From positions 611,558-675,557 of the forward strand of contig KL197720.1 of assembly GCA_000697665.1 (NCBI GenBank): DNA of 64,000 bases, written 5' to 3'. Below the pieces are notes generated by a model, which was given only the letters and a program-made list of their open reading frames with translations, ran no database searches and had not been told where the DNA came from. Source of the stretch: Jaapia argillacea MUCL 33604 (taxonomy: Eukaryota; Basidiomycota; Agaricomycetes; Jaapiales; Jaapiaceae). Positions 11,715 to 55,914 of this stretch are shown here, piece by piece. Position numbers and translations under genes: made by a program. Each line of letters opens with the position of its first letter. Within the stretch, counting starts at the first letter, position 1.

Positions 11715-11736
11715 GAATACTATAAGAAGAAGCTAT

Positions 11737-11806
11737 GCATCAGCCGGGAGTCGAACCCGGAGCTAGGCCATGGGAAGACCCAATGTTACCGCTACACCAC
11801 TGATGC
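11737..11806 (-). tRNA. tRNA-Gly(CCC)
   Basis: The minus strand folds as a 70-nt tRNA: acceptor GCATCAG/CTGATGC, D-stem GTGT/ACAT, anticodon stem GGGTC/GGCCT (two G-T pairs), loop TTCCCAT with anticodon CCC, T-arm CCGGG-TTCGACT-CCCGG. There is no intron. The CCA end is not encoded, as usual in eukaryotes. Confidence 0.95.
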
Positions 11807-30207: not shown

Positions 30208-30766
30208 CCTGGCATGCATCGTATGTTTGTGATCGATCTTAGAGGACTGGTCTGAATTGTACTATTTCACTGCTTGCTGCTGTAAACTGTACTGGATTCC
30301 TTGGATTGAGGTGCTTGTGGACATTGTATCTGTGTGCCATCAGATGAATACGTAGGTCATAAGTAACTGGAAGTCGGCTTCCTCCCAGTGACTACAACTC
30401 TCCGAATCGGAGTTTACAGAGGAAATGTCCGCGTCGTGCTCAACTCATATTAACGGCAAAGATGCAAACCTGTCCTCATCCTTCGATAGCTCAGCTGGAA
30501 GAGCGCGAGACTTTAACGGATGAATTGATGATGTCGGAGGACGTGGAGAGAAGAATGGCTGAGGAGGGGGCGTTGGACAATAATATTGGTGCCAGAGGGC
30601 CTCCGGTTGCTCAAACGCGCTACCGACGCGACGCGTCCTTTCTTACTTCCAACCCTTTCACTTTTCTTTCGATTCGCTTCAGACCGCCCAGCTCCGACCT
30701 TTCAGCCCCATCTATCATCAACTAATCATCAACTCACGTGTAACCAAGGCTACGACCACCTGCCAA
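30208..30766. other. intergenic, contains a tRNA-Tyr fragment
   Basis: Apart from the tRNA-like 5' half at 30480-30521 (separate entry), nothing is recognised. A pyrimidine-rich leader (30630-30760) precedes the recombinase start. Confidence 0.5.
30480..30521 (+). pseudogene. 5' half of a tRNA-Tyr gene
   Basis: The first 33 nt of this stretch are identical to the start of the intact tRNA-Tyr at 34114-34030, in the opposite orientation. The identity then continues with only two differences to the first bases of the tRNA intron (…TAA-GGAT). It covers the acceptor 5' strand (CCTTCGA), the whole D-arm (GCTCAGCTGGAAGAGC) and the anticodon stem 5' strand, but no 3' half follows. The anticodon position reads TTA instead of GTA. 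It cannot make a tRNA. Confidence 0.85.
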
Positions 30767-33290
30767 ATGGTCGATGTCCCCGAGAACTATGGGCGTCGAA
30801 CTTTGCGTAGGAGTGCCAGGGAGAACAACACGGCCTGGGATTTGCTTTTGGCTAATCAGGAGATGCTCGACTTTTCGAGATCTTTGATAGAAGAGTCTGC
30901 GGACCACTGTAGTTGGGCGGAATCCACCAAAGGTAGACGCACCCAAGTGACCGATAGATTCGTCAAGATGCATGAACGACACCCCAGTTATGTTCATCTC
31001 GTGGGCAGAGAGTTTCGCTTGGAGGGACTCCTAGGTATTGTCAATCCCTACCCCGTGGTACCCCCTTACTCATCGTTCGCAAAGACAGGGCGAAAGAGTT
31101 TCTTAATATCTCCGCCCAAGCCTCTCAATCCAGCCTGAATCCAGACGAGAAGTTCAAGTTCACGACCTTTGATACCTTGCGTTGGGACCTTGCCAGTCTC
31201 GTAAGTTTCTGGATGTTGTTTCCGCTACACCCGGTTAATAGCCTTTCTAGATGATACGTTTTTGTGACGAGGCTCGCGACAACAAACCTTTGCATCGGAA
31301 CTGGGAGCAGGAGCTTGGCAATGTGCATCAACCATTCAGGCTTGTAACATTATCACTCGTGTCTAATCAACTCCCAGCACATCCGTTATGTCGCAACCGT
31401 GTTACGACTCTCAAAGGATGGACGGTTAAAACGATACTTTGGGCCGGCCGAGCTTCGCGGTATGATGGAGAACGCTTTGATTATGGGCAGTGCCACCAAT
31501 ATCGAAAATGTACGTGCACGCCGTTTTCCTTGTCAAGGTTGTAGACGATGGATCGATGCGCAGGCTTTGCAACATTGCTTATCCTGGACTCTGATGATGT
31601 ATACGGCTATCCGGCCGTCATCTATATATCAGGTGTCTAGATATCCTGGATGGTACGCAAGATATCGAGTGGGGATCCGATTTGCATGTTTGTCCTTAGC
31701 CTTGACTGAATGCCGCCCAGGACGTCCGACTCAAACGAACGGCCGACATCACTGGGTTTCAAGTCGAGTTTACAGTCGTTGCATGGAAATGAGGTCACGG
31801 ATTTGAACCCTGGAGGTATGTGGCTCTCTTGTTCATGGAGCATCGCTGGCAATTTTTGCAGGCAGATATTTATTCTATCTGCGGTTGACGATGCATCTCA
31901 TGTCCTGATGGATGTTGGTGCACAGGTGATCTCGTTGGGGATACGTCGTGGAGCCTTTTTTACATCATGACACGATGCCGGACTTGCTTCGAGGTCGAGA
32001 TCTATACGTCGAATGGAAGCCAGAACTGTTGGATGAACCCTTCTTTGTGGCTTGTGGTCCCAAAGGACTCACCTTCAACTACGACGCTCCAATGACCGAC
32101 GTAGCATCTCGTCTCTTTCTTCGAAAGACTTGTGAGGAGGTTGGTCTAGGTGGTACGCATATATCCTCCCCTTCGTTGAAGCAGCTCATCCCGTCATACA
32201 GGCGTCGAGAGCAATTCAACGACCTACGTGTTTCGACGTGGTACCGCGACAACGATGCAAACCGTGTACGGTGACGCGCATACGAAAGACGCCATGCATC
32301 ACGACCAAGCGTCCAATACATTAAACAAGAATTACTCCAACGCCGTGATGCAGACGGACCTGGTGCCGGGAATTCTTGACCACCAAAAGAAGTTCGTCCG
32401 AGGTAGGAATGAGTTAGACGCTGCCTACCTCCACCGGTAAGTGGCATCTCGGCGAGGGAATATCTAATTGACTTCCCTCAACAAGTCCTTTGCATACGCC
32501 AACCTTCACCGTGTTATCTGTCGAGGACGCGACAGAGATTGACGATCAATTAGCTGACTTGGCTGATCAACGGGAAGTATGGCAGAATCATTTGATGCAC
32601 GACAGTGACTGGATGCGAGATGCTGTAGGTCGCCACCCCGTTGTTTTGTTCATAGCTGATAATCGCATGTAGTTGAATCTGACTGCAGACGACCGCTCCC
32701 TTATCGAGATGGTACAGGATGGCGATGACATCGTTTCAATCATTTACCAGCGCATCACAAAGCGTTTCAAACGTCGACTTGCCACAGTTCGTGGTCACCA
32801 CCGCGCTGAGGAACTACGAGAATACGCCAAACAGCCAAGAAATCTAACCCTTGACATTCTCCAAGCTCGCCAGCAGGAAATTCAAGCTCCTTCAAACTTC
32901 ATGGCCAGACTTGCGGCTCCTAGGTACCACGCCACCTCCACCGATGCTCTCGACGACGATGGGGACGCATACGAACGCGCCGACTTCGACGACGGCGACG
33001 ATGACGCAATTGCATGTCCTCAATGGAAAGCCAGTGGCGACGTCCGTGACGTGGAGAGAGAGAGCGCTATGAGTTTATGCGGTGAGTTTTCTCTACGAAG
33101 ATATGGGAGCACTCATTAAAGTGCTTCCAGGTCGCTTGTGAACTTTACGCCCATCCCGCCAGGACCTCAACCATGTCCCATCTGTGCCAGGGACTCGAAC
33201 CTCTTCGCAGAAGACCGCCACAAAATCCATAGTGGAAAAAATTAACTCAATCGGCATATGGAACGCAATCACAAGATCACTTTTGATGAA
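30767..33290 (+). pseudogene. DUF3435/FluG-domain tyrosine recombinase, with frame breaks
   Basis: Exons give MVDVPENYGRRTLRRSA…, FDTLRWDLASLMIRFCDEAR (with KPLHRNWEQELG), RYFGPAELRGMMENALIMGS, LLILDSDDVYGYPAVIYIRC, RLKRTADITGFQVEFTVVAW, VLMDVGAQVISLGIRRGAFF, HHDTMPDLLRGRDLYVEWKP, RRGTATTMQTVYG, AMHH and KNYSNAVMTD-like sequence, a helical region (SIIYQRITKRFKRRL) and a possible CxxC tail (PCPICARDSN). This matches basidiomycete 'FluG-domain' (DUF3435) proteins, relatives of the tyrosine recombinases that move Starship elements; R (RRG), H (MHH) and Y (KNY) fit the catalytic set. Two problems remain. A T6 run at about 31957 shifts the frame (RRGAFF/HHDTM), and HVCP/QDVRL is split by 21 nt with stops. 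The copy is probably inactive, unless these are sequencing errors. Confidence 0.65.
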
Positions 33291-34029
33291 TATTTTCAAA
33301 ATGCTCCCTCGGCCCCAAGCCTTCCAGCCTGATAATATTGCGCCTAATGTCTTGCCGTTTCCTCGCACTCACTGTGGCCCGTCTTATACGCCCATCGTAT
33401 CCTTCAAATGCATTCTCACTTGTAATCATAACTTCATAATACACAATCGATTCCCTGTGCAAGGAGATATCACAACCAACATCTGAAGTGGGAGCGGCGG
33501 GCAAAACGCGCATAGAATGAGTGCGCGCATACAACGAGGGGAAGCCGCCAAGGAAGTTACTTTTCAGGGGATACGCAGAGATGGGTCTGTGGTGGCGGTG
33601 ACTCTGGGAGCATATGTCGACCTCAACCAGGGGATACGTCAAGCGCGTCCACCTCCGACTTACAAACCAACGGAAGGAACTGTGGTTCGTCAAGACCTTG
33701 ACTCTACATCAATCCACCACAGCAATCTATAACGTGTAGACACTGTACGATACAGTAAAAGATACAGCTATAATTGATGTACAATAACTTGACCAGAGAG
33801 ACAAAAGTCAAAAGACAGCTACTGGGCTAAAGACAGACATATGTTCGCGTGATGAGAACGACATACTGGAAAGGGAAGAAAAAACTGTATAGCTCCATTC
33901 CAACGTCCAAACCGTTTGGCTGTGATCACACGTTTAAACATGAGAGAACCCTCCTCCACACTTCGTGGGAGTTGGGGATCTGCGACCAATGATCTGCGTG
34001 GGCAGCTTTGCGATGGGAAAAGCAAAATA
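33291..34029. other. intergenic, downstream of the recombinase gene
   Basis: A short plus-strand open stretch (33517-33732) has no recognisable features. Possible degenerate zinc-finger tail sequence of the recombinase may extend to about 33430. Confidence 0.45.
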
Positions 34030-34114
34030 TCCTTCGAACCGGCGTCGATCCAGTGACCTCGAGATGGTGTGTATCCATTACAGTCTCGCGCTCTTCCAGC
34101 TGAGCTATCGAAGG
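34030..34114 (-). tRNA. tRNA-Tyr(GTA) with 12-nt intron
   Basis: The minus strand folds as acceptor CCTTCGA/TCGAAGG plus discriminator A, D-arm GCTC-AGCTGGAA-GAGC, anticodon stem CGAGA/TCTCG with loop C-T-GTA-A, intron TGGATACACACC after position 37, and T-arm ACTGG-ATCGACG-CCGGT. An intron at this position is characteristic of eukaryotic tRNA-Tyr. Total length is 85 nt, 73 after splicing. Confidence 0.95.
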
Positions 34115-35039
34115 GTGAATGTGCAAATCAACAATTACAATCTTATGGGAAGGATCTCCGGGAGGGAGACGACGAGAGACGAATAAAGACGAAGCAAACA
34201 GGGGAGGAAACGCAGCACAGCAGGGTACCGAGACAATCAAAGAGGGAGGGTTCTTCGGAGCGGGGGCGAGGGACGGAGAAAGGAAAGTAAACAGCAGATG
34301 GACACAACACACAACAAGATATCAAGAAACATAGCAACGGAAGGGCACGAAGATGCCACTTGGCGTCTAGTGGAGCATGTTCAGCGGCCAAGCCTGGGTT
34401 CTCGGAGAACACTTCGTTGGCTATTTCCTCCATGCAATTGCCTGGTACTGTTGTGGACGCGACACGACGCGTTGTGTGTGCCTGTTGATTCGAGTTATGG
34501 ATGTGACCTCACGCGCAACTGAGCGCTGAGCCTTTGATCCTCGCCCCCCTGCCTGCGATTCGTCTCCCCTGGTCTCGGAACTGCCATGCTTAGGACGGAT
34601 GTCGCTGGTTCGATCCCGGCTCGAAGGACTATGTTACTTTTTTTCTTGCAACTAAATCTTACTTGGTACCATTCGGTGGAGCCCCTTTGTTTCTTCTCGT
34701 CCGTAGTTGTCATTGTCAAGCGCTCTATTCCAGAGGGTCCGACATCTTGCTTCGCCTTTGAGTTCGTCGATGGCAGGAGCCAGCTGGCAATCAACTGTGT
34801 TGCCACTGCCAGCGGCGATAAGGTCCAGATGTGGTTCATGTCAAGGACAAGTCCCGGCTCAAATTCATCCACGGTGAATCACACCAGTTGGTAGAAGTGA
34901 AGATACTATTGGACTCTTGAACTAGCCGCCATTCGAGCTGAGCCGATGCACACTGGCCATCACAGTCTAGCAGTTAATAATGAGCTATGACAGTAACCCC
35001 GCCACGAAAGTAGAAGGCCGAGTACTACATGGTGGTTAT
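34115..35039. other. intergenic, purine-rich, contains a tRNA-like 3' fragment
   Basis: 34140-34300 is strikingly purine-rich on the plus strand. Apart from the fragment at 34586-34628, no gene is supported. Open frames on either strand here are translations of the tRNA-like sequences. Confidence 0.5.
34586..34628 (+). pseudogene. tRNA-like 3' half
   Basis: A T-arm (GCTGG-TTCGATC-CCGGC) with a perfect Pol III B-box core (GGTTCGATCC) is followed by TCGAAGGA, the same acceptor 3' strand and discriminator as tRNA-Tyr. Over the last 32 nt it matches the intact tRNA-Tyr at 25 positions. No matching D-arm or A-box was found upstream, so it appears to be a fragment. A divergent intact tRNA with a long intron was considered but could not be folded. 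Confidence 0.5.
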
Positions 35040-53295: not shown

Positions 53296-53748
53296 CTACA
53301 AGTGAACAATGGAAACTGGAGCACCCCAATGTCCCTTTGACTTCATTTCCTCGATGACAGCGCCCAATTTCGTCACTCTAACATAAAGTTCTTCGTCCGT
53401 CATCCGCAACCGAAGCATTTCGCTCATATCCAGGTATCGCAAAGATCGAGTGACCCAACCCGCACTCGACCATCCCCTTCCTCCAGTAGGATAATCATCC
53501 CTTTCCGGTCCAAAGCCGCCGAGAAACTCATTCATGTGATGCTCGCTAACGTCGACTTGACCCACATGGATGACTCCGACGAGCGTGGCTGATGGTGAAA
53601 GCGATTGACGGCAGAAGCGCAAGTCATTTCCGTTGACCAACTCGTAGGTCCGCACGAGTGCGGCCGAGTATGATTCTGGATGGATGACGAGACACCAGTG
53701 GTAGTCGCAATCATTAATTTTGTGGAGCGCGATGCCAATTCGCAACAT
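53296..53748 (-). CDS. unknown protein, paralogue of the gene at 55226-55914
   Basis: One exon encodes 150 residues from the ATG at 53748: MLRIGIALHKIND, YHWCLVIHPESYSAALVRTY, LVGVIHVGQVDVSEHHMNEF, GFGPERDDYPTGGRGWSSAG, WVTRSLRYLDMSEMLRLRMT, DEELYVRVTKLGAVIEEMKS. No named family is certain. The layout (HW near the start, a tight W-containing motif GWSSAGWV in the middle) recalls small fungal proteins with peptidase-like folds, but no catalytic assignment is made. An upstream exon like that of the paralogue is expected, yet none joins in frame, so this copy may have lost its 5' exon or be regulated differently. Confidence 0.6.
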   Translation of the reverse strand: MLRIGIALHKINDCDYHWCLVIHPESYSAALVRTYELVNGNDLRFCRQSLSPSATLVGVIHVGQVDVSEHHMNEFLGGFGPERDDYPTGGRGWSSAGWVTRSLRYLDMSEMLRLRMTDEELYVRVTKLGAVIEEMKSKGHWGAPVSIVHL

Positions 53749-55225
53749 GTGCTGGGTGATTCTAAGAATGACGACGTTGAAAGACCGCCCAAAACTCGTT
53801 AGATATAGAAGGAAACTGACTGGATGATCTCAGTAGAGAAATCGGTGACGCAGGGACCAAGTTGGATTCCTCAAGGGCGGCGTTGTGGAGTCAGGGATGA
53901 AACCAGCAGCGGGAACCTTGTATGCCAGGCACATAGGGGGACGAAAGTTGCTGGGAAGGTTTGCCATTGAGTAAATGGCCAGCAGTTGCATCCGTCTACA
54001 AATTACGGCGGAAACGAGGCTGGATAGTAGAAACCTTATCATTGCGGTGACGACATTGCTCTGTCGATCGTAAAGTCTGCGCCAGTGCGACCAGGCGATA
54101 GCTGGGCATCTATCTGGGCATATCGATATCACGACTGAACGTGGAAGTTGTGAAGCTTCAAGTGTCCGGATTGTCGCGAAGTTGGATTGACCGTTGGTTC
54201 TTGGACATGTGGTAGGGCTGGATGACACAGAGGACTTCAAATTTGGCCAGGGCGAATTTCCTGTGGGAAGGTGTGTGACCTTGAAGAAGGCAAGTTTGAG
54301 GGTAGACACTGCAAAATGTGTTGATGGCACTATTCGCGGTCTTGCAATGCAGACCCACGTGTCTGACCTGGATGAGCCGATTATGAGCGGTGGTAAAGAC
54401 ATAAACCGACCTCCACGGGGGGTGGAGTCGGAGCGGACTTGCATCGACGCTGGAGTCGCCTCCTGGTGCTCACGTTCACTCCATGGTCACTGCAGATCGA
54501 TGTATGTGGTTTCTCTTTCTTGGACCACGACGGTCCCAACGCATTTGCTGAGTGCATCATTATATTTGTTATCGACGTGATGAAAATCTGGTTGGTGGGT
54601 CCTTCAGCCGAGTGATGCACTACGTACCCTGACAAGATAACACTTATGCTGTATGTCAGCTAAGCATCAACTCGCTCCGTCAAGATCAGTATATCAGCCG
54701 TGAGAGGTCTTCCCGGAGGTAGCCTGCTGTCTGACCCATAACTCAAACAGGTCTCGCATGTCAAGTCACCCCGTCTCGCTCGCCCTCATGGATTTCCAAA
54801 CCAGTGCCAGACCTGTAGCCCATGGTTAGGGTCATGACGCCGAAATTTATGCTGAGCCATTCCGAAGGCACCAATCGTGGACTTGTACCTTGGATTGCCA
54901 ATTCCGTTTTACCCACCTCTCACCAAGCTGCAGAGGATTTCCCTCTGGCCAGCATGAAGTCTCCCTAACCTAGCGACCACGAAAAAACCGCAATTGTCTC
55001 TCCACAGCCGGCAATCTGATCTTAGCCGATGCGAGGAATTTCGGCGACTGTCCGCCTTCCTGCGCGTTCTCACAAACTCGATCCCACTCACATGATGACT
55101 CATGTCAGTCAACACATGTACTTGCATGGAATCCCAAGGCCCGTGAACCCGATTTTAGATCTGAAGCCAATTAATTATTCAAGGTGACTGTATTCCCCCA
55201 TAGGATCCCCAACCAGCGAAGACTG
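53749..55225. other. intergenic between paralogous genes
   Basis: Long open frames exist on both strands (53830-54444 minus, 54194-54580 plus) and overlap each other. Neither shows family features, and no splice sites support them. Confidence 0.4.
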
Positions 55226-55914
55226 CTACAGGTGAACGACGGAGACTGGTATCCCTTGCCCTCTGGACTTCATCTCTTCAATAACACCGCCCAGCTTCGT
55301 CACCCTTAAATAGAGTTCCTCGTCCGTCAACCTGACTCTGAGCAACTCGCTCATGTCTAAATATCTCAGACATCGAGTCACCCACCCCGCGCTCGTCCAT
55401 CCCCTACCTCCTGTGGAGTAATCATCTCTCTCTGGCCCGAAACCTCTGAGGAACTCGTCCATATGGTGTTCCCCCACATTGACTTGGCCGATGTGCACGA
55501 CGCCGATCAGATTGGGCGATAGTGACAGGGGTTGACGAGCGAACCGTGTTTGCCGTGTTACGGTCCGCTGAGGTCGTTCGTCTCGGGTGACCATCTCGTA
55601 GGTGCGAGTGAGGGAGGCGGTGTATGACTCTGGATGGATCACCAGACACCAATGATAGCCCTTCTCCAAGCCCTTCTCGTCCTGTCGATGCAGCGCAATT
55701 CCGACTAGCATATTAAAGCCCTGCATTGACCAAATGGGATTTAGCGCCCTTTTTTCAGCGGAAACGATGCAATACCGACAAATACCTTGGTCAAAAGATC
55801 CGCGACGAATGGAGGAAGGCTAGAGTCCTCTCTGCACGAGGGTGGGAGAAGCCAGGACGACCACCGGGGCCGTGACCTTTTATTCTGACGGAACGAGGAG
55901 CGAGGATTGTTCAT
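55226..55914 (-). CDS. unknown protein, paralogue of the gene at 53296-53748
   Basis: Exons 55914-55786 and 55720-55226 give 207 residues. The N-terminal exon is basic and Trp/Pro-rich (NKRSRPRWSSWLLPPSC) and ends SSLPPFVADLLTK. The rest parallels the neighbour: MLVGIALH, GYHWCLVIHPESYTASLTRT, LIGVVHIGQVNVGEHHMDEF, GFGPERDDYSTGGRGWTSAG, WVTRCLRYLDMSELLRVRLT, DEELYLRVTKLGGVIEEMKS and VSVVHL at the end. High similarity and same orientation, 1.5 kb apart, point to a local duplication. It has a longer variable loop (VTRDERPQRTVTRQTR). The function is unknown. It is divergent from FOX2. Confidence 0.72.

Follow-up and report, generated by a model that had tools for sequence, protein, structure and literature searches.

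A split tRNA-Tyr gene flanking a DUF3435 recombinase pseudogene in Jaapia argillacea, best read as the site of a captain-type insertion

Introduction

In bacterial genomic islands, a tyrosine recombinase uses a transfer RNA (tRNA) gene as attachment site, with the 3' end of the tRNA normally being restored. Here, we describe a locus of the basidiomycete Jaapia argillacea MUCL 33604 at which the two parts of a tRNA-Tyr gene flank a broken gene for a DUF3435 (captain-type) tyrosine recombinase. The locus lies within a stretch of 64,000 nucleotides (contig KL197720.1, positions 611,558 to 675,557), the whole of which was analyzed and is hereafter termed the window.

The closest described systems are the fungal Starships and their captain recombinases. 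Osiris Starships, belonging to the Enterprise family, insert specifically into 5S ribosomal DNA (rDNA), which is fragmented, and direct repeats of more than 6 bp generally accompany the targeting of 5S rDNA (PMC12153272). Captain families differ in target (PMC12134995), and the Starships of another basidiomycete, Tremella fuciformis, span 42-606 kb (PMC13066641). Cryptons carry short direct repeats at their ends and no terminal inverted repeats (PMC3212892), while Dada DNA transposons of fish enter tRNA or small nuclear RNA (snRNA) genes (PMC8869645).

Materials and Methods

The genome searched, of which the window is part, comprises 43.7 Mb in 95 contigs. It was scanned throughout, with up to three mismatches allowed, for a 27-nt pattern from the 5' part of tRNA-Tyr, a 31-nt pattern from the 3' part and a third pattern corresponding to the first 21 nt of the latter, with the reversed patterns serving as control. 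DNA searches of the genome for copies of the insert score the best candidates only. PF11917 was used with a cut-off of 25.8 bits and Rfam was run at its gathering cut-off. Paralogues of the recombinase were gathered via three queries, namely, the window protein, the C50 protein and the PF11917 family, and tRNA pieces near those on C50, C44, C3 and C41 were sought with 57 tRNA queries (two genes were entered twice), counting matches of at least 28 bits.

Results

Two parts of a tRNA-Tyr gene lie on the same strand of the window, 4.1 kb apart (Table 1), and these are the only unpaired 27-nt 5' and 31-nt 3' halves in the genome at up to three mismatches. The 5' pattern was found at five sites, the 3' pattern at three and its first 21 nt at four; all fall within intact tRNA-Tyr genes except for the two window halves and a 21-nt fragment on C41. 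None of the three reversed patterns matched any site in the same 43.7-Mb scan. Likewise, a DNA search with an 89-nt tRNA-Tyr sequence returned six places, corresponding to the four intact genes and the two window halves.

The four intact genes are of two types, with type A being found at C1 and C41, and type B at C34 (C34:77580-77669) and in the window itself. The 3' end of type A reads GATGTCGCTGGTTCGATCCCGGCTCGAAGGA, that of type B GAGGTCACTGGATCGACGCCGGTTCGAAGGA. In the T loop of type B, A replaces the first T of the type A TTC, and the T stem differs as well. As the two type B copies agree on these T-loop and T-stem differences, the T-loop change is probably not a random mutation.

The original prediction described a 5' tRNA-Tyr half with 33 nt of exact identity. 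Indeed, positions 30480-30512 are identical at 33 of 33 positions to both the C34 gene and the intact window copy. Over 30480-30521, the left half agrees with window type B at 40 of 42 positions, with the type A gene of C41 at 39 and with that of C1 at 38. Although this half had been thought to end at 30521, it probably extends to 30536, running through GATGTCG; TGATGTCG at 30529-30536 matches the type A genes. The 3' half is real. The 7 mismatches in 32 positions previously held against it arose because this type A sequence had been compared with the neighboring type B copy; against the type A genes, the match is perfect. The observation of a split tRNA-Tyr is stronger than was first assumed, and the sequences support the splitting of a tRNA-Tyr gene, with its orientation kept, by an insert carrying a DUF3435 recombinase at its left end.

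Table 1. Coordinates in the window of the tRNA-Tyr parts, candidate junction repeats and features of the putative insert.
Feature	Coordinates	Strand	Basis
5' part of split tRNA-Tyr: acceptor, D arm, 5' anticodon stem, intron-like stretch, GATGTCG	30480..30536	+	Identities; TGATGTCG at 30529-30536
3' part of split tRNA-Tyr: T arm, acceptor, then T run	34598..34628	+	31/31 identical to C1 and C41 genes
Putative 7-bp core/direct repeat GATGTCG, left copy	30530..30536	+	P ~0.004 vs random positions within insert
Right copy of putative core GATGTCG	34598..34604	+	
Alternative left direct repeat ACGGATG	30516..30522	+	Weaker, P ~0.05
Alternative right direct repeat ACGGATG	34595..34601	+	
Putative inserted element, 4068 bp with one core copy	30537..34604	+	Bounded by two tRNA-Tyr parts
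Pseudogene of a DUF3435 (captain-type) tyrosine recombinase; contains introns and frame changes	30767..33250	+	PF11917 match; 3' limit approximate
Fragment of dispersed repeat family inside insert	33676..33980		All 12 repeat loci examined match parts of it
Intact tRNA-Tyr type B, inside insert	34030..34114	-	Rfam tRNA, 46.7 bits; type as in C34 copy

Two 7-bp direct repeats were considered as the junction sequence, and we infer GATGTCG, the better of the two, to be the core. In 100,000 random draws from inside the insert, GATGTCG came up 25 bp or less from the left tRNA end in 0.41%; for the alternative, ACGGATG, a shared word of at least 7 arises in 5% of draws. When the two parts are joined at GATGTCG, an 81-nt sequence results in which, upon global alignment with the four intact tRNA-Tyr genes, the sole deletion lies in the intron region. 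ARAGORN calls this join a tRNA, but as Pro with the wrong anticodon. Joining at ACGGATG gave no ARAGORN call and leaves the 3' anticodon strand missing; with P ~0.05, ACGGATG is a weak candidate for the repeat of the element. The left junction sequence occurs as one copy in the genome and leaves tRNA sequence after GATGTCG, with no element-borne tRNA 3' end restoring the gene. No clear terminal inverted repeats were detected, as judged by the lack of a common 8-mer within 100 bp of both ends.

The recombinase gene predicted between the halves was borne out by a PF11917 match (E 7e-8, 32.3 bits) to the first 436 aa of the concatenated exons, read through frame changes. Its start codon lies 230 bp inside the putative left junction, reading inward, and its exons are in differing frames. 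Two of the frame changes fall within regions for which the C50 paralogue has an open, homologous counterpart, and there is probably a third such change. Since the C50 counterparts are open, the window gene is a pseudogene, assuming that the assembly is right. Several other searches missed it: the genome-wide PF11917 profile search found only C50:70343-70909, the two exon-bearing open reading frames (ORFs) scanned singly gave no DUF3435 match, and a 619-aa exon concatenation, omitting short stretches that include the last exon, matched no Pfam family at E <=1. A GCR1_C domain was likewise not found in this concatenation, a weak test given that the same scan also missed DUF3435. The window, C50, C41 and L006 proteins share columns of Arg, Lys, Arg-Arg, His and Tyr, the residues that are catalytic in tyrosine recombinases.

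The remainder of the putative insert holds a repeat fragment and an intact tRNA. Matches to the repeat are 75-88% identical, and 10 of the 12 end at 33978-33980. Rfam reports two tRNAs in the window, namely, a tRNA-Gly at 11736-11806 and the intact reverse copy, the presence of which had been predicted correctly. The latter reads as Tyr, with a hand-placed GTA anticodon followed by an intron; ARAGORN made no call for it in the window and labels its kin at C41 and C1 Asp and Asn, respectively. No stop-to-stop ORF of at least 150 aa is present in 33250-34604. In the DNA search of the genome, no other copy of the insert appeared among the best candidates; apart from the insert itself, only the tRNA and the repeat fragment were matched.

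Six further recombinase loci were identified, namely, C50:70.3 kb, C50:91.7-93.2 kb, C44:253 kb, C41:225.2-226.7 kb, C3:1619-1630 kb and C22:99960-100262. The C22 match (- strand) is weak (E 0.0013) and was found via the C50 protein only, while that at C50:70 kb was found via the profile only. The paralogues are distant, with 33-44% identity where the window protein detects them. At C41, recombinase homology begins 5.2 kb from the intact tRNA-Tyr, and a 21-nt exact tRNA-Tyr piece, starting at GATGTCG, lies 130 bp past the 3' end of that tRNA. This orphan starts at the same base as the right half in the window, and TTAGG precedes both at the same offset. With five recombinase loci and three tRNA-Tyr sites, at least one pair would lie 6.2 kb or less apart by chance with a probability of ~0.4%, a figure for which the distance was picked after seeing the data and which predates the sixth locus, C22.

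The search with 57 tRNA queries revealed, at C41, two 14-nt matches in addition to the tRNA-Tyr, the 21-nt piece and a 17-nt exact match to a tRNA-Leu/SeC-like T arm (C41:220565-220581, - strand; L048). The last lies ~0.55 kb upstream of the tRNA-Tyr and is possibly another orphan tRNA piece. Matches at C50 are of 14-15 nt only, no match of at least 28 bits was obtained at C44, and C3 presents a whole tRNA-Lys match ~7 kb from the gene along with one 14-nt match. Rfam, at its gathering cut-off, found no tRNA in L051, L052, L057 or L060; as L060 holds the tRNA-Lys match, Rfam can miss intron-bearing tRNAs. A 13-nt exact match to tRNA-Tyr bases 1-13 (C50:85578-85590), ~6 kb from the recombinase, was taken as chance (E ~0.2), and with a 20-nt 5' pattern, 8 more sites turned up at 2-3 mismatches versus 4 with its control, a chance-like outcome. 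One of these sites is C22:93163, at a distance of ~7 kb from the weak recombinase match on C22. By coordinates, a tRNA labelled Ser lies ~1.7 kb from that recombinase match, and an intron-bearing tRNA labelled Leu 2 kb from it.

The paralogous loci also present features of their own. The stretches at C50:86.3-92.7 kb and C44:245.9-254.0 kb are two copies of a recombinase-bearing segment, 84-87% identical over ~6.4 kb of aligned pieces, alongside which no long tRNA match was found. At C3:1619-1630 kb (L058, L059), the recombinase halves are ~9.5 kb apart, with a pair of 431-bp direct repeats (95.8% identity) between them, as if the gene had been interrupted by a long terminal repeat retrotransposon. 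A PDB search with the C50 paralogue gave no match. Elsewhere in the window, the related ORFs at 53296-53829 and 55226-55819 (- strand), 68.6% identical over 436 bp, are apparently a local duplication.

Discussion

The insertion of a DUF3435 recombinase element into a tRNA-Tyr gene is the best reading of this locus, and we assign it a probability of roughly 0.58. A small mobile element coding for a captain-type tyrosine recombinase would have entered the gene at the ~7-base core GATGTCG, at the junction of variable loop and T arm, splitting the gene and leaving each end with a copy of the core. The recombinase gene lies at the left end, reading inward, and its later decay would have left the copy stuck. 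We infer that the recombinase itself made the insertion and that the choice of a tRNA was specific rather than accidental. This reading is favored by the lone pair of halves around the recombinase, by the outcome of joining at GATGTCG and the low chance frequency of that word, and, at C41, by the fragment starting at the same base and the related recombinase 5.2 kb from that tRNA-Tyr. A single case, this suggests that a tRNA gene can serve recombinases of this kind as an integration site.

Several points weigh against an insertion of this kind. There is a single insertion event. The left half is slightly nearer to type B (2 mismatches in 42) than to type A (3-4 in 42), the right half being exactly type A; an origin of the two halves in a single gene is likely, short of proof. 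The halves are near perfect although the recombinase is broken. The joined tRNA has TTA where the others have GTA, along with a poor anticodon stem, so the joined gene would have been damaged before insertion or have decayed afterwards. The ends share only a weak gapped inverted match (30545-30570 with 34544-34569, P ~0.04). At C41, the recombinase is not adjacent to the tRNA and reads in the direction leading away from it, and the 21-nt piece stops short of the tRNA 3' end and could be a templated repair insert. Finally, genome-wide scans placed no tRNA-Tyr near five of the six other loci (C50 twice, C44, C3 and C22). As such, the expectation that other recombinases would lie near tRNA-Tyr was borne out at C41 alone, and the scar of a recombinase-borne element that had been proposed finds support in the split, with its kept orientation and perfect 3' half, and none at those five loci. 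These loci are not decisive counter-evidence, because the paralogues are distant and target choice reportedly varies among captain families (PMC12134995).

It is conceivable, if unlikely, that some other insertion, be it a transposon or DNA captured in break repair, broke the tRNA-Tyr gene and that the recombinase is merely part of, or near to, that DNA. In favor of this are the composite make-up of the insert, which comprises the recombinase pseudogene, the repeat fragment, a second tRNA-Tyr and unique DNA, and the broken state of the recombinase; the ACGGATG repeat alone is also weak. Against this, the recombinase starts 230 bp from the putative junction in the orientation of a captain, GATGTCG is present at both junctions and the C41 fragment begins at the same base. 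Rather less probable is that duplication, inversion or slippage within a local tRNA-Tyr cluster left fragments that flank the recombinase by chance. There is indeed an inverted tRNA-Tyr at 0.5 kb from the 3' half, one that the left half resembles slightly more than it does type A, and local duplication could explain a C41 orphan only 130 bp from an intact gene. The window halves are, however, complementary parts of tRNA-Tyr in the same orientation, and because the 3' half is type A and its neighbor type B, the former was not copied from the latter.

That the halves constitute a functional split tRNA, with transcripts joined in trans, is scarcely credible, despite the near-perfect state of both. 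The 80-nt stretches that follow the left half and precede the right half do pair better than dinucleotide shuffles (z -2.3; 5 of 300 as good), and among partners taken at 20-bp steps, the right end ranks first for the left 80 nt and the left end fifth for the right 80. Yet there is no pairing directly beside the halves (40 nt: z +0.5), the pairing energy is mostly base composition, the anticodon would be TTA, the left half is without box B and four intact tRNA-Tyr genes are present. This candidate was rejected: although no random element pieces did as well (0 of 500), the effect was mostly gone in the composition-keeping control. A more elaborate version of the recombinase-driven insertion, in which a captain lineage specialized on tRNA-Tyr at GATGTCG brings its own type B tRNA-Tyr to replace the destroyed gene, is improbable; if true, carriage of a replacement would render the insertion harmless to the host.

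Were the insertion of the recombinase element indeed recombinase-driven, captain target choice would widen from 5S rRNA to tRNA genes, that is, to a short, multicopy and conserved RNA polymerase III (Pol III) target. It would also provide a captain-type element of only ~4 kb in a basidiomycete and would connect fungal captains with bacterial integrases, which habitually target tRNA genes, supplying a short core sequence that can be tested. In bacterial tRNA islands, the tRNA 3' end is restored, whereas here the gene stays split. Both 5S rRNA and tRNA genes are Pol III genes. Cryptons are small, as is the insert here, and Dada elements are DDD/E transposase elements.

Dada offers a likeness in that tRNA or snRNA genes of a eukaryote are entered (PMC8869645), and differs in not being a tyrosine-recombinase element. 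Cryptons share with the insert a tyrosine recombinase and the absence of clear terminal inverted repeats; their short terminal direct repeats are of 4-6 bp, as opposed to the 7-bp candidates here, and they differ in that the recombinase here is DUF3435 (PMC3212892). The text of that article does not mention tRNA. Because GCR1_C, the DNA-binding domain of CryptonF, was not found, the insert is not filed as CryptonF, weak as that test was.

The likeness to Starships lies in the DUF3435 tyrosine recombinase, recognized here via the 436-aa read-through, and in its position, the captain being the first gene at the 5' end and reading inward. For the flanking direct repeats of Starships, the candidates here are GATGTCG (P 0.004) or ACGGATG (P 0.05). 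Starships, however, are at least 15 kb with cargo, whereas the insert is of 4068 bp with no cargo recognized; since size and cargo fail, it is not filed as a Starship, for which it is too small. The Starships of T. fuciformis likewise involve captain-type recombinases in a basidiomycete, yet measure 42-606 kb as compared to ~4 kb here, and tRNA goes unmentioned in the text of that article (PMC13066641). In Enterprise/Osiris Starships, as here, a captain recombinase is associated with a small RNA gene that is entered and fragmented, the target there being 5S rDNA rather than tRNA-Tyr, with no mention of tRNA in that text (PMC12153272). The original prediction considered such target choice undescribed for fungal recombinases. 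For tRNA genes this stands, in that no report of a captain in a tRNA gene was found, although coverage of the Starship papers was incomplete and this is weak evidence of absence; for small RNA genes in general it does not, since Starships fragmenting 5S rRNA genes have been published (PMC12153272). The insert is best read as behaving in the manner of a captain-type element that targets a Pol III gene, and with captains that target 5S rDNA already described, a captain in a tRNA gene would be the new part.

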